A stretch of DNA of 64,000 bases from Nitrospinae bacterium CG11_big_fil_rev_8_21_14_0_20_45_15 (lineage in GTDB: Bacteria; Nitrospinota; Nitrospinia; Nitrospinales; VA-1), in the NCBI GenBank assembly GCA_002787235.1, contig PCWG01000042.1, positions 274,110 through 338,109 of the forward strand, written 5' to 3'. Shown piece after piece: positions 7,022-61,304 of this stretch. The notes under the pieces are model-generated. The model was not told where the DNA came from. It did no database searches and saw only the letters and a list, made by a program, of their open reading frames with translations. The position numbers and the translations under genes are program-made. Each line of letters opens with the position of its first letter. Within the stretch, counting starts at the first letter, position 1.

Positions 7022-7489
7022 TTATATGGAGAGAGTGCTGACAGGAGGGGATCGTTCCCGTATTTTTAGCCAATAACCAGAAACAGGGTCGTCTTGTGAG
7101 TGGTCACTGAACAAGAAGGTTTCGGGAGTGTGCTGAAAATTGGGTGTTGAAAAATAGGCGGAAACTTTTACAACCGTATTGGACTTTAGCGGTTTTGTGA
7201 TTGTGTTGTTGAGTTCGACATCCAGTTGATCTTCATCTGGAACTGCATGGGGGTGCGTGTGGTTATGGTCAAAATTTGCACCTTCACTGTGAACCAGGGG
7301 CTTATGGGCAATATTCTCCAATGCCAGTGAGTGGAAATGCCCTTCATGTTCGTGTGCGAATGGCTTGTCGGCGTGTGCGTGTACATTTTCGGGGTGATAG
7401 TGGTAATAAGGCAACAGTAGGAACTGTATCCCTATCACAAGGGTCATAATGACCCAACTCACACTGAAATTTTGGATGTATTTACGCAT
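7022..7489 (-). CDS. His-rich exported/membrane-anchored protein, putative metal-binding accessory of the czc operon
   Basis: 155 aa; N-terminal TM then YYHYHPENVHAHADKPFAHEHEGHFHS...HNHTHPHA; first gene of the efflux operon. Confidence 0.7.
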   Translation of the reverse strand: MRKYIQNFSVSWVIMTLVIGIQFLLLPYYHYHPENVHAHADKPFAHEHEGHFHSLALENIAHKPLVHSEGANFDHNHTHPHAVPDEDQLDVELNNTITKPLKSNTVVKVSAYFSTPNFQHTPETFLFSDHSQDDPVSGYWLKIRERSPPVSTLSI

Positions 7490-7767
7490 AGTCCCGTTTT
7501 TATAATTAATATCTACTTACTCTATCGGCGAGCAATATAAATAATATAGCAAAATTTCACGCTGTTAGGCAATTCTTTACGACAGAGTAGTTCTTCGGGT
7601 AAGGTATTCCATAATACCCAATTGAGGTGATTGTGAAACTAACTTGAACTGTTGATGCTAGTGCTTGTTTTGCTTATTGATCTGGATGCCTAGGGGAGGG
7701 GGAAGATGATGGTTCACCCGATCAGGGTGATAAACTCTGTTTTGAACGATTGGCGTTACAAAACGTC

Positions 7768-7806
7768 ACTTGGCACGCTATCTCATAAATGGATAGCATG
7801 CCAAGT
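7768..7806 (-). terminator. 15-bp stem hairpin downstream of the 61-aa ORF
   Basis: ACTTGGCACGCTATC-9 nt-GATAGCATGCCAAGT; the single mismatch is a G-U wobble only when transcribed from the minus strand, the direction of the gene ending at 7845. Followed on that strand by GACGTTTTG. Confidence 0.55.
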
Positions 7807-7844
7807 AGTAGATCGATGGTTTTCCAAATTTGAAGGGTGCAACC

Positions 7845-8030
7845 TTACACCAAGGTATTGACGTTGGTTCCTTTGCCTTGATCGTCGCTATCGCCGTCAT
7901 TTTGACCTGCTTGCACATTTTGAACTTCTTGTGCTTTTACTTCGTTGGCTTTGGCATTTTTGTTGGAACTGTTATTTGATTGCACCGATGCCGTATACTG
8001 GCCGGAACTGCCTACACTTGATACGTCCAT
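7845..8030 (-). CDS. 61-aa small protein beginning MDVSS, possibly motility-related
   Basis: ORF with GGGAGA ribosome site, near-consensus sigma28 promoter upstream and hairpin downstream. Confidence 0.7.
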   Translation of the reverse strand: MDVSSVGSSGQYTASVQSNNSSNKNAKANEVKAQEVQNVQAGQNDGDSDDQGKGTNVNTLV

Positions 8031-8072
8031 GACGTGTCTCCCAATTAGAAAAGATAAACTTCCTCGTTTTTC

Positions 8073-8099
8073 TTATCGGCAGAGATTTTAAAGACATTA
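8073..8099 (-). promoter_or_regulatory. sigma28 (FliA)-type promoter
   Basis: Minus strand TAAT-N15-GCCGATAA; 11 of 12 positions match TAAA-N15-GCCGATAA. Confidence 0.7.
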
Positions 8100-8210
8100 G
8101 TGAAAATTTTATGTGGATCGCAAAAAAAAATAGAATTTTTTACTTTGAGACCCGATTTTCTAGAAAAGGGGTTTAAATCTTGTAATTGAGCGGGATTTGA
8201 TTTACAAATT

Positions 8211-10109
8211 ATGGAGATGCCTCCCTCCTTCAATGAATGTGTTGAAATCATGAACGATCCCCAAATTTTAACGACTTCTACCGACACCGGCTCCAAAATC
8301 AAAGTTTTACCCGACAATTTGTCCAATCAGATTGCCGCTGGCGAGGTGGTGGAACGTCCTGCTTCGGTGGTTAAGGAATTGATCGAAAATTCGATCGATG
8401 CCGGTGCGAAGAAAATCATCATTGAAATTGAAAAAGGTGGCAAAGACCTGATTCGTGTGGACGATGATGGTTGCGGTATGTCCTGGGAAGATGCGGAACT
8501 GGCCTTTTCAAGACATGCAACAAGCAAGATTTCCAGTCAGGAAGATTTGGAACGGATCAATACCTTTGGTTTTCGTGGCGAGGCACTGCCGAGTATCGGC
8601 TCCGTTGCCAAGGTTCGACTCACCAGTTCCATGGACGAAAATCGTGGTGGCAAGCTGGTCGCTATTGAAGCGGGGAAATTAGAACTCACCCGGCAAATCG
8701 GGCGACCCAAAGGGACGATGGTTGAAGTGCGCCACTTGTTTTTCAACACTCCGGCCCGCAGAAAATTTCTGAAAGGTGACAGCACTGAATTTTCGCACAT
8801 TGCGCAGGGGGTGACGCAACAGGCTCTGGCTTGCCCGGCCATTCATTTCAGTTTGATACACAATGGGCGCAGTGTCATCAACACCGCCCCGACGGAACAA
8901 CTGCTCTATCGCATTGCCGAGTTGTTTGGTTCCGAGCTTGCCGGTGAGCTGGTTCAGGTCAAGGCATCTGCCGGGGATTATCATTTGAGTGGCTTCGTTT
9001 CCAATCCGGTTTACACACGTTCAAACCGAACGAATCAATACGTCTATGTGAACGGTCGTCTGGTACGCGACAAAGTCATCCAGCACGCAACTCAGTTGGG
9101 ATACAGTCATCTACTTCCCAAAGGCCAGCATCCGGTGATCTTTCTTTTCCTGAAAATGGACCCGGCTCTGGTGGACGTTAACGTGCATCCCTCCAAGGCA
9201 GAAGTGCGTTTTGCCTTTCAAAACGAAGTGCATCGTTTTGTCAGTCAATCCATCCGTTCGGCTTTGTCCGATAGTGAAAAACTCCCTTTTGTGAATCCCG
9301 AAAGGGAAGAAACGCAAGTTGAGAGGCAAAGCGAGCCTTTGGGCAATGCGCAAGAGACAATCCGTTACGACAGCCGTCCCGAAACTCTGGTTCCCTATGC
9401 GCGCGAAAAATTCGGCGACATGCAAAAGTCGTTATCCGCTCTTTATGGCGGACTCGGCTCCCCGCCGCAACCCTCGAATCCTTCGGGACTGGATTCGGTG
9501 CATATTTTCGAGCAGAAGGGCACACCCATTTCAGAATTGATGTATTCCGAGTTTGAGCCTATCGGTCAGTTGGAAAATTCTTTCATCATCATGCAGGGCA
9601 AGCGTGGAATCTTATTGGTTGATCAACACATTGCACACGAGAGGGTGTTGTACGAACGTTTTCGCGAAGCGGCAAAAGATAAAAAGGTCGATGTTCAGCA
9701 GTTGCTGTTTCCTGAATCGTTGGAGTTCTCGCCGAGCGAAGCGCAGATTTTGGGCGATCAACTCGAACTTTTAAAGGGATTGGGACTTGAGCTGGAACCA
9801 TTCGGAGAAAATGGATTCCTCCTGCGTTCGGTCCCCGCGATTTTGAAGAACGTGGATTACAGTCAGGTGATTCGTGAAATTCTGGAAATGACAGACGGCA
9901 CCGCCCTGCAGAAGAAGTACGACGAAGTGCTCATCATGATGGCTTGCAAGAGCGCGATCAAGATCAACCATCCCATGGATTTCAACCAGATGCGCAAGCT
10001 GATTTCAGATCTGGAAGAAACAGAAATGCCCTACACCTGCCCGCATGGCCGACCGATTTCCCTGCTGTTTGACATGAATGATATTCTCAAGCGTTTCTTG
10101 AGAAAGTAA
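8211..10109 (+). CDS. mutL: DNA mismatch repair protein MutL
   Basis: IKVLPDNLSNQIAAGEVVERPASVVKELIENSIDAGA, GFRGEALPSI; C-terminal dimerisation domain. The true start may be the ATG at 8250. Confidence 0.97.
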   Translation: MEMPPSFNECVEIMNDPQILTTSTDTGSKIKVLPDNLSNQIAAGEVVERPASVVKELIENSIDAGAKKIIIEIEKGGKDLIRVDDDGCGMSWEDAELAFSRHATSKISSQEDLERINTFGFRGEALPSIGSVAKVRLTSSMDENRGGKLVAIEAGKLELTRQIGRPKGTMVEVRHLFFNTPARRKFLKGDSTEFSHIAQGVTQQALACPAIHFSLIHNGRSVINTAPTEQLLYRIAELFGSELAGELVQVKASAGDYHLSGFVSNPVYTRSNRTNQYVYVNGRLVRDKVIQHATQLGYSHLLPKGQHPVIFLFLKMDPALVDVNVHPSKAEVRFAFQNEVHRFVSQSIRSALSDSEKLPFVNPEREETQVERQSEPLGNAQETIRYDSRPETLVPYAREKFGDMQKSLSALYGGLGSPPQPSNPSGLDSVHIFEQKGTPISELMYSEFEPIGQLENSFIIMQGKRGILLVDQHIAHERVLYERFREAAKDKKVDVQQLLFPESLEFSPSEAQILGDQLELLKGLGLELEPFGENGFLLRSVPAILKNVDYSQVIREILEMTDGTALQKKYDEVLIMMACKSAIKINHPMDFNQMRKLISDLEETEMPYTCPHGRPISLLFDMNDILKRFLRK

Positions 10110-32504: not shown

Positions 32505-33125
32505 TCAGCGCGTGATAGTGGAAAATGTTTTAAAGGCTCGAAGCCCCAGCTTTTCCCAATCCAAATCGGCAAATGCTTCTGCTGAAACTGGATAAATACG
32601 AATCAGTTTCAAAACTCCCACTTCCTCAATTTGTGAAAGAATTATTTGTGGATCTGTTTTCGATACAGATTTGAAGTTTTCGTCGTTCATTTCCCATTCC
32701 CAGGGAGATGTTGAGTAGTACACAGAACTCCATTCCTCTTCATTTTGAATTTCTGCCAGGCGTTTTGCAAATTGCGGAAGCCTTTCCCCTTTCAGTATCA
32801 GAGAAAAGCCCAGATAGTGTCCCCACCAAAAAAGCGCACGGAAAGTATAAAACTCAGTTTTTGAAAATTTTTGAGGCAGGTCAAAGGATACAAAGGGGAA
32901 ACAGTTGTGGTTTTCACCCCGTGCAATCTGCCCCTTTACTAAATCGGTTCCCTCAGGGAACACGATGCCGGATTCTTCACAATAGCGAGACAGTGAAGTT
33001 CTCATCGAGTCGAAGCGGGCTTCGGCTTTTTTCAAAATGTGAGGTTTGAGGCGGAACAATTCCACCGTATTGATCAGAGAAATTTCCTGAACTGTCCAGG
33101 AAGACAGTTCAGTTTCCGAGGTCAT
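32505..33125 (-). CDS. hypothetical protein (206 aa) downstream of PilZ gene
   Basis: Intact ORF co-directional with the stator operon, 30 bp gap. Confidence 0.6.
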   Translation of the reverse strand: MTSETELSSWTVQEISLINTVELFRLKPHILKKAEARFDSMRTSLSRYCEESGIVFPEGTDLVKGQIARGENHNCFPFVSFDLPQKFSKTEFYTFRALFWWGHYLGFSLILKGERLPQFAKRLAEIQNEEEWSSVYYSTSPWEWEMNDENFKSVSKTDPQIILSQIEEVGVLKLIRIYPVSAEAFADLDWEKLGLRAFKTFSTITR

Positions 33126-33155: not shown

Positions 33156-33554
33156 TTACTTGTATTTCTTCTCGTCAAGTTCTTCTTTTTGACGAGTCAA
33201 AATATAATGGTGAATATCGTCTTCTTCCTGAGGTGATAAACCAACAATTTTTGCCCGACAAACATCGCCGTCATCAATTTTAAGAATTTCGACTTTTACT
33301 TCGATGGAATGTGAAAGATGAGGAAGGTGAATACTCAAAGGTAAAGCGATATTCTTTTGGAATGACCTATTTGCAAACGAAATTCCGCCCGCACTCAAAT
33401 CCAGAGCGGGCAAACTCACACCGTTGATTTTAAGGTTGACGGGGTTTTCTTTCGACGGATAGACGCGAAAAGCACCACGGGTTTCAACGGGCATTTTGAA
33501 CAGCAGTTTTTCTTCTTTCCCCGCCTCGTTATTTTTTTTCTTTTTCCAGAACAA
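33156..33554 (-). CDS. PilZ-domain protein
   Basis: RGAFR (RxxxR) and DLSAGG ([D/N]xSxxG) c-di-GMP-binding motifs; overlaps 3' end of motB by 26 bp. Confidence 0.82.
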   Translation of the reverse strand: MFWKKKKNNEAGKEEKLLFKMPVETRGAFRVYPSKENPVNLKINGVSLPALDLSAGGISFANRSFQKNIALPLSIHLPHLSHSIEVKVEILKIDDGDVCRAKIVGLSPQEEDDIHHYILTRQKEELDEKKYK

Positions 33555-34953
33555 ATTCTACCCTCCTATTTTTTCTTCGACCGAGCTCGGTATCGTTTGA
33601 CGCGAGAGGAAATGTATCAGCATAACCCGTCGCGGTTAATTTTTCGGGACGGATCCCTTTGTCTATAAAATATCTTAATACTGCAGTAGCTCGTGCGGCA
33701 GACAACTCCCAGTTCGTTGGAAACCGGTCTGTAGAAATAGATTCGTCGTCCGTATGTCCCTGAATATGAACTTTGTAGTTATCATATTTCTTTACGATTC
33801 TGATGACTTCATCGAGTGCTGGCAAACCTGTTTTTTGCAAGTCTGCTGAAGCCGATGGGAAAAGAGAATTTCCAGGAACACGAACCACTATTTTAGCCTG
33901 ACTGGTATCTAAATCTAATTCAGTGTCTTCAACAACCTGATTGATATCAGTCAATATATCGTTTGATTTCATTCCTGTCAAATTCTGAATTGAATCTTTT
34001 ATTTGCGCACTATCAAGCATTTCCAATAACCCTATACTAGCACTTTCTTCTCCAAGAATGGCTTCTTTAAACTGTTGCATATTGACAGCAGCTATAGAGT
34101 AATAAAGGATGAAAAATGTTAATAAGAGCGTGACCATATCTGCGTAGGTAATCATCCAGGATTCGCCACTTTCTTCCTGAAGGTCCGAGACCATTTTGGC
34201 TTTTTTATTGCGCAGTTTTTTTAATTTTTCGCTCCACTCTTCTTCCAGTTGGCGTATCTTTCCTGTCAGCCTTTTATCAAACGTTTTTTTTGCTTCAGCC
34301 AGTTCTATTTCAAGATTTATCTTATCATTTTTAAGATGAGCAAGATCGTTTTTCAGTTCTTGGATGAGGTCGGAAGGTTTTTTTGCCCTGTTGGCCGCAG
34401 AATCCTCTGTTGCGCTGTATAAAACGGCTTCATAAGATTGAATGAGTTGGTTTTTTTCCTCAATCAGGCGAGAAAATTCTTCCTGATTGTTCTTGGCCTT
34501 CTCTTCCATCAATTTGACTTTTTCTTTAACTTGTTTGATTAAGTCAGGATTTTTTCGTACCTTTCGTACTTCCTTGATCAATAACTGTTTTTGTTTTTCG
34601 AGTTGTTGATTTTCATCTTTATGTAAGATGAGTTCTTGAGAAAGAGTTGTATTTTTTTTTCTAAGCTTGTTGAGGGCCTTGACTAATTTGGGATCTTGAA
34701 CGAAGACTTCTTTTTCAATCACTTCCGGTTCTTCGTCATCCGAAGAACCATGTTCCTCCCGCCCTTTTTGGAGAAGCAGTTCCTTTTCTCTGGCTTCCAG
34801 TTTGATCTTTAGCTCTTCAATCCTGTTTTTCCCAATTTCAAACAGAGCTTTGTACTTCTCATCTTCTTTTTGTTGAAGGGCGGCTTTCTTTTTGAAGTCG
34901 AGGGACTGGGCTCGGAGTTGCTCTTTAAGTGTCTGGATATTGTCCCTGGCCAT
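33529..34953 (-). CDS. motB: MotB/OmpA-family stator protein with ~260-aa N-terminal coiled-coil extension
   Basis: SWMITYADMVTLLLTFFILYYSI TM with conserved Asp, C-terminal OmpA domain VHIQGHTDDESISTDRFPTNWELSAARATAVLRYF. Confidence 0.88.
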   Translation of the reverse strand: MARDNIQTLKEQLRAQSLDFKKKAALQQKEDEKYKALFEIGKNRIEELKIKLEAREKELLLQKGREEHGSSDDEEPEVIEKEVFVQDPKLVKALNKLRKKNTTLSQELILHKDENQQLEKQKQLLIKEVRKVRKNPDLIKQVKEKVKLMEEKAKNNQEEFSRLIEEKNQLIQSYEAVLYSATEDSAANRAKKPSDLIQELKNDLAHLKNDKINLEIELAEAKKTFDKRLTGKIRQLEEEWSEKLKKLRNKKAKMVSDLQEESGESWMITYADMVTLLLTFFILYYSIAAVNMQQFKEAILGEESASIGLLEMLDSAQIKDSIQNLTGMKSNDILTDINQVVEDTELDLDTSQAKIVVRVPGNSLFPSASADLQKTGLPALDEVIRIVKKYDNYKVHIQGHTDDESISTDRFPTNWELSAARATAVLRYFIDKGIRPEKLTATGYADTFPLASNDTELGRRKNRRVEFVLEKEKK

Positions 34954-34989: not shown

Positions 34990-35763
34990 CTAACGCTTCA
35001 TCACTTTTTTCTGCATGGGTTTACGCAGTTTCGCCGGTATGTAAGAGGATAACTTTTCATACACAAGCATGGGATTATTATCCGACAGAATTGAAATAGC
35101 CCCTTCAAAGATAATCTCCAGATTGATCACTTCCAGCATGGTTCTTGCGCGAAGTTTTCCTCCAATCGGAGTGAATATCAAGGTGGCCAATAAACTTCCG
35201 TAAAAAGTGGTCAATAGGGCGACGGCCATATTGGGTCCAACCGATTCAGGGTCGGACAAGCGGGTTAACATCTGAATCAAGCCGATCAGGGTTCCGATCA
35301 TGCCGAACGCCGGGGCATAGGTCGCCATCTTTTTAAATACATCCTGAATGATGAAATGTCGCTGTTTCATTGAGTCGATTTCAATGGTCAACGTATCCCG
35401 CATCATGTCCTCTTTGGTGCCATCGGCAATCAGGTTGCATGCTTTTTTTAGAAAGTCTTCATCAAACTCCAATTTGCTAAGAGCTACGATTCCCTGCCTG
35501 CGACTCAGGGTACAAAGTTCCACCATCGTCGATACCATGACGTTGGGGTCTTTTTTATCTTCACGAAATACAATTGCCGCCGCTCTCCAGGCAGACATAA
35601 CGTCCGTTATTTGGAAGGTAAGAAGTGTGGCCGCAATGGTTCCACCAAATACAATCATGATGCCTGGAATATTTAAAAAACTTCCCATATCCCCACCCAT
35701 GAACATGGCGGCCAATATGAGTGAGATTCCTGAAATGATTCCAGCGAAAGATGCTAAATCCAT
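34990..35763 (-). CDS. motA: MotA/PomA-family stator protein
   Basis: FGGTIAATLLTF, ATYAPAFGMIGTLIGLIQML, GPNMAVALLTTFYGSLLATLIFTPIGGKL. Confidence 0.93.
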   Translation of the reverse strand: MDLASFAGIISGISLILAAMFMGGDMGSFLNIPGIMIVFGGTIAATLLTFQITDVMSAWRAAAIVFREDKKDPNVMVSTMVELCTLSRRQGIVALSKLEFDEDFLKKACNLIADGTKEDMMRDTLTIEIDSMKQRHFIIQDVFKKMATYAPAFGMIGTLIGLIQMLTRLSDPESVGPNMAVALLTTFYGSLLATLIFTPIGGKLRARTMLEVINLEIIFEGAISILSDNNPMLVYEKLSSYIPAKLRKPMQKKVMKR

Positions 35764-47462: not shown

Positions 47463-48314
47463 TCATTGCAATATGGTGTTTTCAAGTTTGGCGCGGGTGG
47501 TGATGGCTTTGGATATATTGGCATCGATCAGATAAGAATCGTTTAAATTTGCATTCGTAAAATTGGTTCCGTGCAAATTGGCTTCCAGAAAAAATGCGTT
47601 TTGGAGATTGGATTCTTCAAAATTTGCATAGGTCATGTCAGAACCTTCGAAATTAGTTTCCTCTCCCTTAATGCCCACACAGTGCGCATCTTTCAGCTCC
47701 GTTCCCATCAGATTCGACTTGCTGATATCGACATTTGTGAAGTTGCAGGTATTGAGATCGCCATATTTTAGAGTCACCCCTGTCATATTCACTCCCGTCA
47801 CTTTTGAATAACTGAGGTCAACCCCTCTCATATTTGCACTGTTTAATTTGCAATTTGTGAGCTCTATTTGCTTGAGGTAACCGTACATCAAGCGGGAGAA
47901 GGAGAGGTCGCAGTCATTCAACTTGGCAGAGTACATGTTTGCATAATTCATGTTGGCCCCTTTGAAATTGCAGTGTTTCCCAGAGGTTGTCATGAATTCG
48001 CTGTGTTCAAGAATCGCATTTGTGAAAATACAGTTCGTCAGTTCGGCTTCTTCAAAGTTGACCTCACTGAGGTTTGCTCCTGAAAAATTCACGTTTTTAA
48101 GCTTCGCTCCTTTAAAAGAGGCTTGCGTCAATGTTGCATGCGAAAAATTGATGTCTTCCAGTTCGCTTTTCCCAAAGTTGGTCTCCATAAGGGTGGCGTA
48201 CATAAAGCTGGCCTTTTGAAGATGAATTTCTTTGAGATTTTGCCCACTGAACTCGGCCCCATCCTGTTTGGGTTCTTTCGCGATGAGTAATTGAAGATCG
48301 TCAGCGTCTGACAT
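47463..48314 (-). CDS. pentapeptide-repeat protein
   Basis: Continuous A(D/N)LXX-type repeats: ANLSEVNFEEAELTNCIFTNAILEHS..., through C-terminus. Confidence 0.9.
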   Translation of the reverse strand: MSDADDLQLLIAKEPKQDGAEFSGQNLKEIHLQKASFMYATLMETNFGKSELEDINFSHATLTQASFKGAKLKNVNFSGANLSEVNFEEAELTNCIFTNAILEHSEFMTTSGKHCNFKGANMNYANMYSAKLNDCDLSFSRLMYGYLKQIELTNCKLNSANMRGVDLSYSKVTGVNMTGVTLKYGDLNTCNFTNVDISKSNLMGTELKDAHCVGIKGEETNFEGSDMTYANFEESNLQNAFFLEANLHGTNFTNANLNDSYLIDANISKAITTRAKLENTILQ

Positions 48315-48322
48315 AGTTTATT

Positions 48323-49153
48323 TTATTTCCTTAAATTTGGAGGAAGCATGGAGTTCATACTGCGTTGAATTTTTTGCGGGTTGTTGCGGTCATGTATGCC
48401 CAAAACTCCTACGCGCACTATTTTGAAAATCACTGCCTCAGATTCGGTTTTAGATGCTAATTTGGCGACAACGGGAGTGATGAGTAAATTTGCCAGAATG
48501 ATTCCGTAAAATGTCGTGATCAACGCTGTGGCCAATGCAGGACCAATGGTAGAAGGATCGTCAATGTGCATGAGCATCTGAATGAGACCGATCAAGGTTC
48601 CCGCCATCCCGAATACGGGTGCCTGAACACCAATGAAACGTAGTATTTTTTGCCCCGAGTTATGCCTTTCCATCATGGATGAGAGTTCCCGTTCTAAAAT
48701 TTCATGGATTTCTCGACCATTGTACCCATCGACAATCATTGCAATTCCATTTTTCAGGAATGCATTTTCAATTTTGGCTTCTTCATTTTCAAGTTGTTTC
48801 ATTCCCCCCGAACGGTATTTCGTTGCCAATTTCATGATGGTCTCTACATAATTGGCAGGGCTGGCGTTTTCGGGTCGGTATGCTTTATATATGACAGGTA
48901 ACATCGTCGTGATTTTTTTAGAAGGGAAAGCGATAAAAGCTGTTGCTACCGTTCCTCCTAAAACAATCAAAACCCCGTTTATATTGACAAATACCCCGGG
49001 ATCACCGCCTCGAATGATAGCACCGACGATCAGAAATATACCGAAAAAAGTCCCAAGAAGGGTTCCTGTGTCCAGTCCGGTTCCTTCTTGTTCCTCTTGG
49101 TCCCTGGCTCTTGCGCCAGTGAGGTCTGGAATATCTTTAGTTGCTGTAGCCAT
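48323..49153 (-). CDS. motA: MotA/PomA-family stator protein (second paralogue)
   Basis: LGGTVATAFIAFPSK, GVQAPVFGMAGTLIGLIQML, GPALATALITTFYGIILANLLITPV. Confidence 0.92.
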   Translation of the reverse strand: MATATKDIPDLTGARARDQEEQEGTGLDTGTLLGTFFGIFLIVGAIIRGGDPGVFVNINGVLIVLGGTVATAFIAFPSKKITTMLPVIYKAYRPENASPANYVETIMKLATKYRSGGMKQLENEEAKIENAFLKNGIAMIVDGYNGREIHEILERELSSMMERHNSGQKILRFIGVQAPVFGMAGTLIGLIQMLMHIDDPSTIGPALATALITTFYGIILANLLITPVVAKLASKTESEAVIFKIVRVGVLGIHDRNNPQKIQRSMNSMLPPNLRK

Positions 49154-49165
49154 TATCTATGGGGG

Positions 49166-51253
49166 TTAACTGGCGACTTTTTCTGCCTTCGCCTGTATTT
49201 TTACTTTGAAAACTTTAAGGATATAGTTTTTTATCCAAGGTAATTTGAATTCATCTTTACGGCCAGAATGAATAAAAACCTTAAGGAATTCGGGGTCTTC
49301 AAGAGTTTTAAGTGCGACTTGAGGGCTTAGTTCTGTGAACATTCGGCCCATACAATTAACACCGGAATAGGTTTTACAAAATAATTCACCCCAGGATGTC
49401 ATATACGTAGCACTTACATGCCGAATCTGCTCGATTTGCTTGTTGATGAATCTGTTCAACTCCTTATTATTCAGGCAGGCTTTGATATTCCCATTTTCTA
49501 CATTGGGTGGTAAGGGAGTGCCAAAGTCAATGTCCAAAAAAAGTTGCCCGATTCGCGCATCTGACATCAGTGCTTCGTTGGAAATTGAAGCGATGTTAAC
49601 GGAGTTAATGGCACTTGAAAGCTTGCTCATCAGGTGACGAACGTCTTCTTCTTTTACAGGCTGACTTTCGGCCCGTAGCAAAAAATCGGTTTCGTTTTCA
49701 ACAAAAAGCTTATTAAACGCAATGAATGCAAGCATGGACTGATAGGATGCGAAGTTTTTAATGACGTCATCTTTTGGAACATGTTCGATAAAGGCCAAGG
49801 TTCTGCCTCGAACCAAATACCATTGGGGCCGTTCTTTAGCGGAAGATTGTTCGCATAGAAGTGTTAATTTCTTTTCGGTGGTTTTCCCGTCTACCATAGC
49901 GGTGAGGTTTTCAACCTTGTTAGGGGCTTTTCGGAAAAAACTGAAAAGTTTTCGGCCTAATAAATGAGTGTCTTTTTCGGTGATGAGACTTTCTGAGGGA
50001 TCGAGATTCTTATTTTCTTCGGAGATATTTTTGTAACAAGCCATCAGTATCTTGTTGACGCGATTGCCCAATGCCACTTTCTGCATGATCTGCCAATCGG
50101 TGTACTGATTCAATTGTTCTACTTTAAATGGCGTCCACTGCCATTTATTCATCATTTGGATCAGAATATTTTTTTTCCAGAAGGTGGGCGTTTCTTCGAA
50201 ATCCTCAGGCTCTATTTTAGTCCCGACTTTTAAGTAAAATGCGGAGCGTAAGGCATCTACCTCGTTATCGTTCTTCGCCTCAGAAAAAAACTTTTCCACC
50301 CTGTCAAACATCAGGAGATAGGCGTCAATCTTTTCGTAAGGTACTTTGTCAAAAACCTTTTGTTTGACTTCGTGGCAGAGTAAATTGGAGGCCGTGTCAT
50401 TAAACATGTACTCTTCCAGCAAACCCATTTTCATGAGTGTTTTGAAAGGGGATTTGAACGATTTGATCAAGGCCCAAATAGAGCCCCCGAAAAACTCTCC
50501 GGGTGATATATCATGTACATTTCCCATATCTATAAATTCACCCTTGTCCAGCAAGGTTTTCCCTGACTGGAGAAGTTTGTACAGTTGCTCATAGCGTTCG
50601 TCATCGGTTTTGACGGGGACAATCCACCAAAAAGGGACGCGACCGTTTACGGTGATAATGGTTCGGAACATTTCCTCCTTCAATAGAATGGCCAGGGCCG
50701 AACCCGTGCTTTCACTGTCACTTTCACCAAAAATATTGTTTTTAACTTCATTGTAGTCGTTGGTGAAAAAATGCGTCTCCAAGTGGTAATTGTCCCAGGT
50801 CCATTTTTCTATCAATTGTAGTTTTTTCTGGAATAGAGCCAGACTTTTCTCGTTGAACTGTGTTTTATCTATCAGAAGAGTGTAGTCGAGGTCGGACTTT
50901 TTGGTTTGCGCGATGGAGCCCACGCTACCCATGAGCAGTACGCTATGGATGACGGGGTCTAAATGTTCGTTTCTTCTTAAAACAGCGTTGGGAAACAACT
51001 TTTCACAGGCGACTTCAGACTCTTTGTCGATTTTAAAATTATAGATTCCGCAGGGAACGGGCTCATCACTTTCAAAATAACCCGGCAAGTCGGGTTGATG
51101 AATATGCAGTAGACGGGGAATAGCGGCAAAGATCAATCGATCCACTTCGGAAAGAGTTTTTAGAGTTCTGTCGATTTTGTAACGATTGAACTTTAAGAAA
51201 TCTTTTCGGTTTTGGAATAAGGCTTGAGAATCTATTTGATTTTCACTTTCCAT
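49166..51253 (-). CDS. class I adenylate cyclase (CyaA)-like nucleotidyltransferase
   Basis: IPRLLHIHQPDLPGYFESDEPVPCGIYNF and LLMGSVGSIAQTKKSDLDYTLLID parallel enterobacterial CyaA [27 protein letters not shown] and [22 protein letters not shown], as recalled. Confidence 0.8.
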   Translation of the reverse strand: MESENQIDSQALFQNRKDFLKFNRYKIDRTLKTLSEVDRLIFAAIPRLLHIHQPDLPGYFESDEPVPCGIYNFKIDKESEVACEKLFPNAVLRRNEHLDPVIHSVLLMGSVGSIAQTKKSDLDYTLLIDKTQFNEKSLALFQKKLQLIEKWTWDNYHLETHFFTNDYNEVKNNIFGESDSESTGSALAILLKEEMFRTIITVNGRVPFWWIVPVKTDDERYEQLYKLLQSGKTLLDKGEFIDMGNVHDISPGEFFGGSIWALIKSFKSPFKTLMKMGLLEEYMFNDTASNLLCHEVKQKVFDKVPYEKIDAYLLMFDRVEKFFSEAKNDNEVDALRSAFYLKVGTKIEPEDFEETPTFWKKNILIQMMNKWQWTPFKVEQLNQYTDWQIMQKVALGNRVNKILMACYKNISEENKNLDPSESLITEKDTHLLGRKLFSFFRKAPNKVENLTAMVDGKTTEKKLTLLCEQSSAKERPQWYLVRGRTLAFIEHVPKDDVIKNFASYQSMLAFIAFNKLFVENETDFLLRAESQPVKEEDVRHLMSKLSSAINSVNIASISNEALMSDARIGQLFLDIDFGTPLPPNVENGNIKACLNNKELNRFINKQIEQIRHVSATYMTSWGELFCKTYSGVNCMGRMFTELSPQVALKTLEDPEFLKVFIHSGRKDEFKLPWIKNYILKVFKVKIQAKAEKVAS

Positions 51254-51334: not shown

Positions 51335-52921
51335 TTATTTATTAACATTGGTGTCCGCCAATTTCTCATCGGGTTTGGCGGGTTCCGTTTTATTTGTACT
51401 TGATGGATTTTCTTTTTGATCTTTTTCATTGGCTTGTTTTTTTCGCTCCGCTTCACGATCTGCAACCCGGATATCTTTCAAAATTTTAATCTCGACTCTG
51501 CGATTGATAGCCCGGAACTCATCACTGGTATTACTTTTTAGAGGGCGGTATTCTCCATAGCCGGTGACAACAATTCTTTCAGGTGGGAAACGCATTTCGT
51601 CAATAATATATCGTGCGACGGTTGAAGCACGAGCTGAGGAAAGTTCCCAATTGGATGGAAATTTGTCCGAATGTGTGGGTACGTTGTCAGTATGGCCATC
51701 TACGAGAATCTGTTTCACACCTTCTTTTGTGTCTTCGCTGATAGCGTCTTTGATCAGTTTTTTCGCACCTTCCAGCAAGTCGGCACTGCCCGGTCCAAAC
51801 AGATCGGATGTGGGGAGTCGTTTTAATATGGTTCGTGTGTCGCTTCTTACCAGAGTTTCTGCGTCCACGTTGTCTTTGACCAATTCCCTGACATGTTCCA
51901 GCATTGTCATTTCCTGTGGTGTCAGTCTAACGTTGACATGCTCAATTTTCATCCGCTGTTCCTGAAAGGCAGAAAGCGCGTCTGCGAATTTTTCCTCATC
52001 CATTTTGGATACGGTAAACATCAACACAAAAATAACGAGCAGAAGCGTCATCATGTCGGAATAGGTGACGAGAAAATTTTCAAGTCCGGCTGAGAATTCT
52101 GCTGTAGAGTCGGCGCGGCTATCGGAACTTCGGTAAGAACCTTTATCACCACCGCCACCGGAGCCTTCTTTTTTCTCTTCCAGCAGGGTTAGCTTCATCT
52201 CTATTTCAGCATTGTCCTCGCGCAACATTTCCAGTTCAACGATCATATTTCGACGTTCTTTTTCTAAGTCTTCGATTTCTTCTTTCAATTCGGCGATAAC
52301 CTCAGCCGGGAGCATGCCCTCTTCTTCGGGGTCCAAACCACCGTAAAGCATTTTTTCGTATTTCTCTATGATTTCATCTTTTTCTCTTAATATTTGCGGA
52401 CTGAGGCTGGGATTTAAGCCAGAAGAAGAGGATTCTTTTGTTTTTTTTAACTCGTCTTTTAAAGCCCGGATATTGCCCTTGAGGTTGTCGATGCTGTTGC
52501 TGTCTTCTCGCAATCGTTTGAGCTCTTTTAGAAGAACATCCTTTTCTTTTTGAGATTTGAGGATTCTCTCTTCCCGCTCTTTAATGCGTTCACGCAATTT
52601 TTCACTACGTTTGTTTAACTCTTCGATTTTTTTTTCTAAAATCGGATTAGCGTTGGCGGGTGTTTCGTCTGCGCGGCTTTCTTCCGTTTTCCCAGAATGT
52701 TTGGACAGTCTGGCCGCCAGTGCGATGTCTTTTTGTTCTTTGATCTCTTCGTCTTTTTTTACAAGGGTTTCCTTGAGTTTTTTGATCTCATTTTGATTGT
52801 GACTGGAAATATCCTTGATTTTGAGCGTGATTTGAGTTTTTTCTTCCTTGATTTTGCGCAACTCGGCTGCCTGTATTTTGAGTTGCTCTTTGAACATTTG
52901 CACGGATTCGAATTTACGCAT
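51335..52921 (-). CDS. motB: MotB/OmpA-family stator protein with ~280-aa N-terminal coiled-coil extension (second paralogue)
   Basis: FLVTYSDMMTLLLVIFVLMFTVSKMD TM with conserved Asp, OmpA domain ILVDGHTDNVPTHSDKFPSNWELSSARASTVARYI. Confidence 0.88.
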   Translation of the reverse strand: MRKFESVQMFKEQLKIQAAELRKIKEEKTQITLKIKDISSHNQNEIKKLKETLVKKDEEIKEQKDIALAARLSKHSGKTEESRADETPANANPILEKKIEELNKRSEKLRERIKEREERILKSQKEKDVLLKELKRLREDSNSIDNLKGNIRALKDELKKTKESSSSGLNPSLSPQILREKDEIIEKYEKMLYGGLDPEEEGMLPAEVIAELKEEIEDLEKERRNMIVELEMLREDNAEIEMKLTLLEEKKEGSGGGGDKGSYRSSDSRADSTAEFSAGLENFLVTYSDMMTLLLVIFVLMFTVSKMDEEKFADALSAFQEQRMKIEHVNVRLTPQEMTMLEHVRELVKDNVDAETLVRSDTRTILKRLPTSDLFGPGSADLLEGAKKLIKDAISEDTKEGVKQILVDGHTDNVPTHSDKFPSNWELSSARASTVARYIIDEMRFPPERIVVTGYGEYRPLKSNTSDEFRAINRRVEIKILKDIRVADREAERKKQANEKDQKENPSSTNKTEPAKPDEKLADTNVNK

Positions 52922-52968: not shown

Positions 52969-53252
52969 ATGAAAACAATGGTTTAATCAAGGAAGTTCTG
53001 TTTTATATCGAATAGATCAATTCAGGCAAATTCACTCGATTTCCCTGAATACAGTGGTCAATGCCCAAATATATGATAGTTTGGCATATCACAGGTTCTA
53101 TTGAATAATGGGTTGGTTTAGTGCAATTATCGGATTTAAAGATAATTACATTAAGAAAACCTCTGAAATATTAGGGCTCTATTAAATTTTAGGGGAGGCG
53201 TCCTGCACTTGTCAATGGGGCAAATATTTTTTAATTTTGTTAAATGTGAAAT

Positions 53253-60365: not shown

Positions 60366-61304
60366 ATGGATTCATCGAGTGAAAATGATTATTCGGCGTT
60401 AAAGGCACACTATCATTTTACAGAGGAAGATGAAGAACGCTTGCTTGCTTTGAAGCCCTTTCTTGAAGCTTCTGTTGAAGATTTTTTAACAGGATTCTAT
60501 GAATTTATCTGGGGATTCGGCAAGACGGCAGAATTTCTTAAAGATGAAGAAGTGGTCAGTCGGCACCGTGGAAAGATTCGCGAATGGTATTTGGATCTCT
60601 TCAATGGGACCTACAAACTCACCTATTTTCGAAAACTTTACAAGATAGGTGAGTTGCATGTTCGGTTGGGTCTGCCAACGCATTATGTCAATGCGGCGTT
60701 CAACTACGTTCGTGTTTTCACCTTGGGACGTATTCATAGAAGTTACACCGGAAAAGGTGATTTGACAGATGATCTCAAATCAGTTGAGAGAATTCTCGAT
60801 ATCAATCTGGACGTCTTGACCAGCTCCTACCGTCAGGAAGAAGTGGGCCGTTTCCTATCCCTTTCCAGTATTGAAAAGACATTATTGGGCCTGCTTAAAA
60901 GGGCCAGCTCCTATTTTAATTACTTGTTGGCGAGTGCTCTGGTAATGGTAGCGGTATTTGCGGTAGGCTTGTTTGGTTACGATGTGTATTTACTGACTTC
61001 TGGAAAAAACTCTGTGGAAGAGGGGATACTGACCATCCTGGGTAGTTTGCTTATTTTGTGGGCCGCGATCGAGCTGATTCATCAAGAGATCAGCCATCTG
61101 CGGGGAGGAGGGTTTGCTCTTGAAGTATTTATTACCCTTGCCATTGCCGCTTTGATTCGAAAAATATTGATATTTTCTCTTTCCCCGGCGAAGTCAGTGG
61201 ATGTTTTAATGTACGGGGTTTTGGTACTTTGTTTGAGTGTTTCTTATTGGTTGATCACTCAAAAATCTAAAAAGAAGATAAAAGAAGACTCGATTATTCT
61301 TTGA
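60366..61304 (+). CDS. globin-sensor (protoglobin-like) domain fused to PsiE-like membrane domain
   Basis: Sensor-globin motif KLYKIGELHVRLGLPTHYVNAAFNYVR; C-terminal four-helix membrane region SALVMVAVFAVGLFGYDVYLLTSG...LGSLLILWAAIELIHQEISHLRGGGFALEVFITLAIAALIRKILIF. Confidence 0.78.
   Translation: MDSSSENDYSALKAHYHFTEEDEERLLALKPFLEASVEDFLTGFYEFIWGFGKTAEFLKDEEVVSRHRGKIREWYLDLFNGTYKLTYFRKLYKIGELHVRLGLPTHYVNAAFNYVRVFTLGRIHRSYTGKGDLTDDLKSVERILDINLDVLTSSYRQEEVGRFLSLSSIEKTLLGLLKRASSYFNYLLASALVMVAVFAVGLFGYDVYLLTSGKNSVEEGILTILGSLLILWAAIELIHQEISHLRGGGFALEVFITLAIAALIRKILIFSLSPAKSVDVLMYGVLVLCLSVSYWLITQKSKKKIKEDSIIL

Follow-up and report, generated by a model that had tools for sequence, protein, structure and literature searches.

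Two MotB paralogues of the Nitrospinaceae and sister families share a conserved N-terminal arm, one of them in an operon with a predicted class-I adenylate cyclase

The closest described relatives of the motor proteins reported here are the four-helix flagellar stators of the PomAB/MotAB type (TGI4; PomA structures 8BRI and 8BRD). According to a 2025 survey, flagellar stators vary little in structure; neither 'Nitrospin' nor 'coiled' occurs in the survey's text (PMC12505986). A precedent for coupling a stator to a cyclase comes from P. aeruginosa, in which MotC binds the diguanylate cyclase SadC; MotCD-SadC is the best-known case of load or surface contact being passed to a second messenger, with missing links still named (PMC12288467). 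A long cytoplasmic helical element is known from the defence system Zorya, a 5:2 motor bearing a rod that is formed by the C-termini of its A subunit, ZorA (PMC11890865).

We compared with these systems a 64,000-nucleotide stretch of Nitrospinae DNA (the window; Table 1), which encodes two stators whose B subunits, MotB1 and MotB2, carry a long N-terminal extension that we call the arm. As in the PomAB/MotAB stators, a plug, a linker, an OmpA domain, an invariant aspartate and the R88 residue are present, and almost all of MotA1 and of MotA2 can be aligned with PomA. The other B subunits examined, however, mostly have 10-50 residues before the plug, whereas MotB2 has ~280, and motB2 is separated from motA2 by the cyclase gene. 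The proposed combination of stator, second-messenger cyclase and c-di-GMP-binding protein acting on the stator recalls MotCD-SadC/FlgZ, although there the messenger is c-di-GMP, the cyclase is SadC and the stator component is the A subunit MotC, while MotAB2 would involve cAMP, a co-encoded class-I cyclase and a B subunit that bears the arm. With ZorAB the system would share its 5:2 make-up and a long helical element in the cytoplasm, but MotA2 ends like PomA and has no ZorA-like tail. The cyclase shares with the E. coli CyaA type both Pfam domains and the GSxGS...DxD motif; it differs in lacking the C-terminal part and in its place in an operon with a motor. Finally, the candidate PilZ protein of the first paralogue resembles YcgR/FlgZ in its RxxxR and DxSxxG motifs beside a stator gene pair, but is a single-domain protein whose gene overlaps that of the armed MotB.

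Table 1. Features of the two armed stator loci in the window
Feature	Coordinates	Strand	Description
206-aa ORF	32505..33125	minus	behind motB1-PilZ; syntenic in most MotB1 loci
PilZ protein	33156..33554	minus	132 aa, single domain; overlaps the end of motB1
motB1 (paralogue 1)	33529..34953	minus	474 aa; extension homologous to the MotB2 arm
motA1	34990..35763	minus	PF01618 2.7e-26
Pentapeptide-repeat protein	47463..48314	minus	last gene of the operon; PF00805 1.3e-50
motA2	48323..49153	minus	276 aa, PomA-like A subunit; PF01618 1.3e-27
Class-I adenylate cyclase (predicted)	49166..51253	minus	695 aa; PF12633 8.6e-49, PF01295 4.4e-69
motB2	51335..52921	minus	528 aa, ATG start; MotB-type B subunit with ~280-aa N-terminal extension (arm)
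motB2 OmpA-like peptidoglycan-binding domain	51500..51802	minus	periplasmic; residues 374-474, PF00691 2.3e-17
motB2 TM helix and plug	51959..52081	minus	residues 281-321, PF13677 4.2e-14; follows the ~280-aa extension
MotB2 extension	52082..52921	minus	residues 1-280; AF2 helices 2-75, 93-166, 174-193, 205-251
Gly/Ser-rich linker, arm to TM helix	52121..52168	minus	residues 252-267; pLDDT <50, no secondary structure
Helix-loop-helix motif, conserved	52277..52384	minus	residues 180-215: EKDxxIxxYExMLYG, loop, GMLPxEIIxxL
Promoter-like site	53186..53215	minus	TTGACA-18-TAAAAT, upstream of motB2; consensus matches 11/12

The original prediction had described motB2 as a MotB gene with a giant N-terminal extension, and we recovered exactly that open reading frame. 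The membrane helix it had placed near residue 284 of 528 (the string it quoted begins at F283) lies within the MotB_plug match, and its motif strings and N-terminal strings, both pairs, are present in the translations of the two paralogues. Beyond the arm, MotB2 carries the traits of a stator B subunit set out in the survey, namely a plug plus linker and an OmpA-like domain, as judged from Pfam matches (PMC12505986). Residue D289 in the membrane helix is invariant in an alignment of 19 orthologues and is presumed to be the ion-binding aspartate. Orthologues that match motB2 from end to end were found in the class, in about 30 genomes. As for the promoter-like site upstream, the count of such sites in the region is not above that in shuffled sequence.

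All full-length relatives that we found belong to the Nitrospinaceae, which are marine nitrite oxidisers, and their sister families; MotB2 orthologues that span the full length, with 43-75% identity, come from the window's own family and three sister families, all within one order. MotBs from outside that order, in the rest of the class and in many other phyla, match MotB2 from about the plug onward only. In a non-exhaustive set of 75 such loci, including one (L120) from the same class, the length before the plug could be called in 73 and was 10-50 residues in 70 of the 73. The three outliers have 66 residues (L119, at a contig edge), 97 (L120) and 198 (L135, apparently a mis-called start). 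In a contig scan keyed to TM and OmpA patterns, no arm from another phylum was found among the best 80 loci listed. A third, short MotAB pair without an arm (MotA0-MotB0, 270+270 aa) is present in the same genome and throughout the order. Two genes upstream of motA0-motB0 in genome G000, a NACHT-like NTPase is fused to an FGE-sulfatase domain (L087:1210-3591, contig C37).

Profiles were built for the arms of the two families (23 and 20 aligned extensions, with the motor part left out) and compared with each other, giving a match of 249 bits over 248 columns (Prob 99.9, E 1.2e-36). Reversing either alignment reduced this to 18-24 bits, and 20 shuffles of seven-column (heptad) blocks, which preserve both composition and heptads, gave 51 bits at most. 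These controls, together with an unrelated coil of the HlyD type taken from the window, rule out generic coiled-coil similarity as the source of the match; that had been named beforehand as the refuting outcome and was looked for. The claim of a non-random motif common to the two extensions is thus borne out. Searched separately against the MotB1 family, three blocks of the MotB2 arm gave significant matches: residues 1-65 (E 3.5e-15), residues 90-160 (E 6e-12) and the motif block 175-235 (E 8e-14). The last stretch before the membrane, residues 225-278, gave no significant match between the families.

The centre of the motif, YExxLYG-x(n)-LPxEIIxxLK, is kept in most aligned members of both MotB families. 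In most MotB2 orthologues GMLPSEII comes after EKDxxIxxYExMLYG; genera g6 and g7 have altered forms. Many MotB1 orthologues read EKxxLIxSYExxx and then LPSEIIKxLK. Throughout the order, MotB1 and MotB2 orthologues of full length carry the arm; its length and middle part vary, down to ~140-170 aa in family 1 members of g2 and g6. A full-text literature search for MotB proteins extended in this way, or for operons that join a cyclase and a stator, returned no paper. We conclude that the arm is a real domain, apparently undescribed as far as searched, and that the earlier observation of it is both confirmed and understated: it missed the order-wide cyclase operon, the flagellar genes of the organism and a receiver domain fused to the arm of one relative.

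AF2 models give a segmented, largely helical arm. In MotB2 the mean pLDDT of the arm is 70.7, with helical blocks mostly at 75-90 and about 215 helical residues in total; the motif loop corresponds to residues 194-204, and the disordered Gly-rich linker before the membrane helix is accompanied by two further breaks between helices. The MotB1 model has helices at 2-65, 88-132, 137-187 and 195-259, followed by the membrane helix at 265-301. Its layout is similar, and its break at 188-194 falls at the corresponding motif, but the break before the membrane is short. These are models of single chains from 19-row alignments, with pTM values of 0.32-0.33. From the topology of MotB proteins, the MotB2 arm should be cytoplasmic, and it is presumably dimeric.

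The extension had been read as an inherited domain, possibly of an undescribed family; homology and apparent novelty stand, but descent by recent duplication of one long MotB runs against the trees. In trees of MotA, of the MotB head without its extension and of both concatenated, families 1 and 2 are not joined. In the MotA tree, MotA2 groups with stators that have a short MotB and come from other families in the class (97/90); for MotA1 the grouping is rather with MotA0, the plain form (94/74). A single clade of families 1 and 2 was rejected on the MotA+MotB concatenation (p-AU 0.0035) and on MotA alone (p-AU 0.028), but not on MotB alone (p-AU 0.46, or 0.20 without locus L153). A simple sister-paralogue origin of MotAB1 and MotAB2 is therefore rejected on MotA and the concatenation, not on MotB alone, with long branches present. 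Homologous arms on non-sister motor cores mean that the arm was either shuffled between stators or repeatedly lost; it is likely, rather than proven, that it moved between motB genes, or that it is of old date and the plain stators lost it. Locus L153 itself (7102-8684) is labelled Desulfotignum, and its MotA nests in the Nitrospinia MotA1 family beside a short MotB, which points to a transfer or a binning error.

The motB2 operon runs motB2, cyclase, motA2, pentapeptide gene. In the window these genes are 81, 12 and 8 bp apart, and a divergent MFS gene stands at the head of the operon. Among 20 MotB2 loci compared, the cyclase adjoins motB2 in all 20, motA2 is present in 19 and the pentapeptide gene in 18; L047, which ends at a contig border, is without the last two, and L045 is without a recognisable pentapeptide gene. 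In every intact locus the cyclase gene intervenes between motB2 and motA2 and so breaks up the customary motA-motB order. Across the class, 35 of the 36 genomes with MotB2 have the cyclase, and in the exception (G005) the contig ends just behind motB2. Presence of MotB2 and of the cyclase is associated over 78 genomes of the class (Fisher 5e-6, kinship and incompleteness ignored). At the syntenic place in the g14 and g16 genomes and G023, the cyclase and the pentapeptide gene are present and motB2 and motA2 are absent; g2 has only the cyclase there. The stator genes on either side of the cyclase are thus gained or lost jointly, which supports MotA2 and MotB2 as a pair. Since the cyclase persists at the locus without them, it must be useful without the stator and does not need it.

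The cyclase has the nucleotidyltransferase motif GSVGSIAQTKKSDLD at residue 109 of the window protein, and the pattern GSxGS...DxD is kept, with small variants, in 38 aligned relatives. With this motif and a class-I catalytic domain, the enzyme is predicted to produce cAMP. Its match to PF01295 stops at position 445 of 601, which means that the C-terminal part is missing. Genome G000 encodes some 18 cyclic-nucleotide-binding domains, many of them in ORFs of 120-170 aa, and would therefore offer many possible receivers of cAMP. Elsewhere in the window (60366-61304), a protoglobin sensor domain is fused to a PsiE-type membrane domain.

At the first paralogue the gene order is motA1, motB1, PilZ gene, 206-aa ORF. 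The PilZ protein scores 22.3 bits against PF07238, just under the cut-off of 22.5; by pattern match, it and 15 of 24 relatives have both RxxxR and DxSxxG (D/NxSxxG). The 206-aa ORF has no Pfam or NCBIfam match. The check proposed with the original prediction, whether the arm motif occurs together with linked signalling genes, came out in its favour, with the cyclase beside paralogue 2 and PilZ beside paralogue 1. A third combination is found in genome G016 (L056:1922-3745, contig C188), where a MotB relative of 607 aa has an N-terminal REC domain (PF00072, 1.2e-20), then the arm, the plug and the OmpA domain. Its arm is homologous to those of both families (E 3.6e-8 and 1.3e-6), and its gene adjoins an HD-domain gene and a MotA2 relative. 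This fusion supports both a cytoplasmic side for the arm and a role as a place of signal input. Other long MotBs have a similar layout: in G023 fliG has a divergent long MotAB pair as its neighbour (L076, contig C20), and in G060 (L190) two different long MotBs, related to the L076 pair, stand in tandem before MotA and the cyclase. Homology to the arm was not detectable in the long N-termini of these proteins, nor in a 97-aa N-terminus from G059 (L086).

Judged by its sequence, MotAB2 appears to be a PomA-type flagellar stator (TGI4; PMC12505986), because MotA2 keeps both FliG-contact residues and fliG lies in a flagellar operon of the same genome. PomA is the best PDB match of MotA2, with residues 27-269 aligning to PomA 1-241 (7e-47) with a single two-residue gap, and the match covers the entire large torque-generating cytoplasmic domain of such stators (FIT, TGI4; PMC12505986). 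Taking R88 and E96 of PomA as the equivalents of the E. coli FliG contacts R90 and E98 named in that survey, we found both in 24 of 24 MotA2 sequences, whereas MotA1 has the R88 equivalent in 28 of 28 but Ser or Gly for E96 in all 28. MotAB1 can thus be called a flagellar stator less surely than MotAB2, and the glutamate lost from MotA1 may mean an altered rotor contact. The threonines T158, T185 and T186 are kept (T185 in 23 of 24 MotA2), as in Na+ stators. The fliG gene of G000 lies inside a run of flagellar-type ORFs (L193), of which those other than fliG were named by eye from their N-termini. With kinship and incompleteness again ignored, FliG presence over the 78 genomes is associated with the cyclase (Fisher 2e-7) and with MotB2 (Fisher 0.006).

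In the reading that we prefer, and to which we give a probability of about 0.45, the MotB2 arm is a signal-input element that ties the state of a PomA-type flagellar stator to cAMP. MotA2 and MotB2 would form the stator, presumably 5:2, and the segmented helical arm, presumably dimeric, would hang below the opening of the MotA ring, held by its flexible Gly-rich linker, serving for docking and signal input and not as a rigid drive shaft. Its partner would be the co-encoded adenylate cyclase, such that cAMP synthesis and the state of the stator (its engagement, or the flow of ions) influence one another, as with MotC and SadC in P. aeruginosa; we infer the contact between arm and cyclase, and likewise the direction of signalling. 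The long MotAB pair next to fliG in G023 and the association of the cyclase with FliG speak for this reading. The persistence of the cyclase where the stator genes are absent, the FliG-negative MAGs with MotB2, the lost E98 equivalent of MotA1 and the lack of detectable arm homology in the L076 N-terminus speak against it. MotAB1, with the same arm, would answer to c-di-GMP via its PilZ protein, and an arm of the L056 type would take its input from REC. The more general proposition, that one transferable arm on two non-sister stators links ion-driven motors to cAMP, c-di-GMP (PilZ) or a phosphorelay (REC), is put forward tentatively.

Another way to view MotAB1 and MotAB2 is as non-flagellar 5:2 ion-driven motors, with the arm acting on a cytoplasmic or envelope target and MotA0-MotB0 alone driving the flagellum. 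Zorya, ExbBD and the gliding motors would be the models, the armless pair is at hand in the same genome and order, the genes of both armed stators lie outside the main flagellar operon, and the E98 equivalent is lost from MotA1. MotB2 also occurs in three FliG-negative MAGs, but these are 61-84% complete, and all five FliG-negative genomes above 90% completeness are without it; MotB1, however, is present in G042, which is 97% complete and FliG-less. Set against this are R88 and E96, kept throughout MotA2, and a full A subunit of PomA type together with a plug plus linker and an OmpA domain, which are flagellar-stator traits (PMC12505986), and we regard non-flagellar motors as unlikely, if well worth considering. 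A Zorya or other defence motor is rejected, as PADLOC reports generic ZorB similarity in the B subunit only and matches neither MotA1 nor MotA2, which have no tail.

Accepting a flagellar stator still leaves other roles for the arm. It could be a structural spacer or assembly element without signalling, concerned with pole targeting, clustering or keeping unassembled stators closed, the cyclase being merely an old neighbour in the transcription unit. Such a neighbour could hold its place without the stator genes, as the cyclase and pentapeptide gene do, and a spacer could vary in its middle and in its length, as this coiled coil does. It is harder to square with a specific loop motif strongly conserved beyond the heptads, with a cyclase that always splits the intact gene pair, or with REC fused to the arm in L056 and a PilZ gene adjoining the paralogue with the same arm; we consider it improbable. 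The long helices, and Zorya as a rod-bearing 5:2 motor (PMC11890865), might instead suggest a rigid shaft, a coiled coil by which rotation between the MotA ring and the MotB dimer would be passed on to a load in the cytoplasm. This is very improbable, because the Zorya rod belongs to the A subunit, presumed to rotate, while the MotB2 arm sits on the B subunit, for which anchorage to peptidoglycan is expected, and because the Gly linker between arm and membrane is of low confidence and apparently disordered, with two more breaks in the model.

With its arm, MotAB2 is a variant of a flagellar-type stator, the stator type itself being already known. How flagellar load or surface contact becomes a second-messenger signal is a question on which the locus bears. 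MotAB2 offers a conserved, separable cytoplasmic domain with a cyclase in the same operon, and its natural variants (PilZ, REC and loss of the stator pair) are ready comparisons. If true, a transferable arm would make the stator a hub that joins motor load and second messengers.
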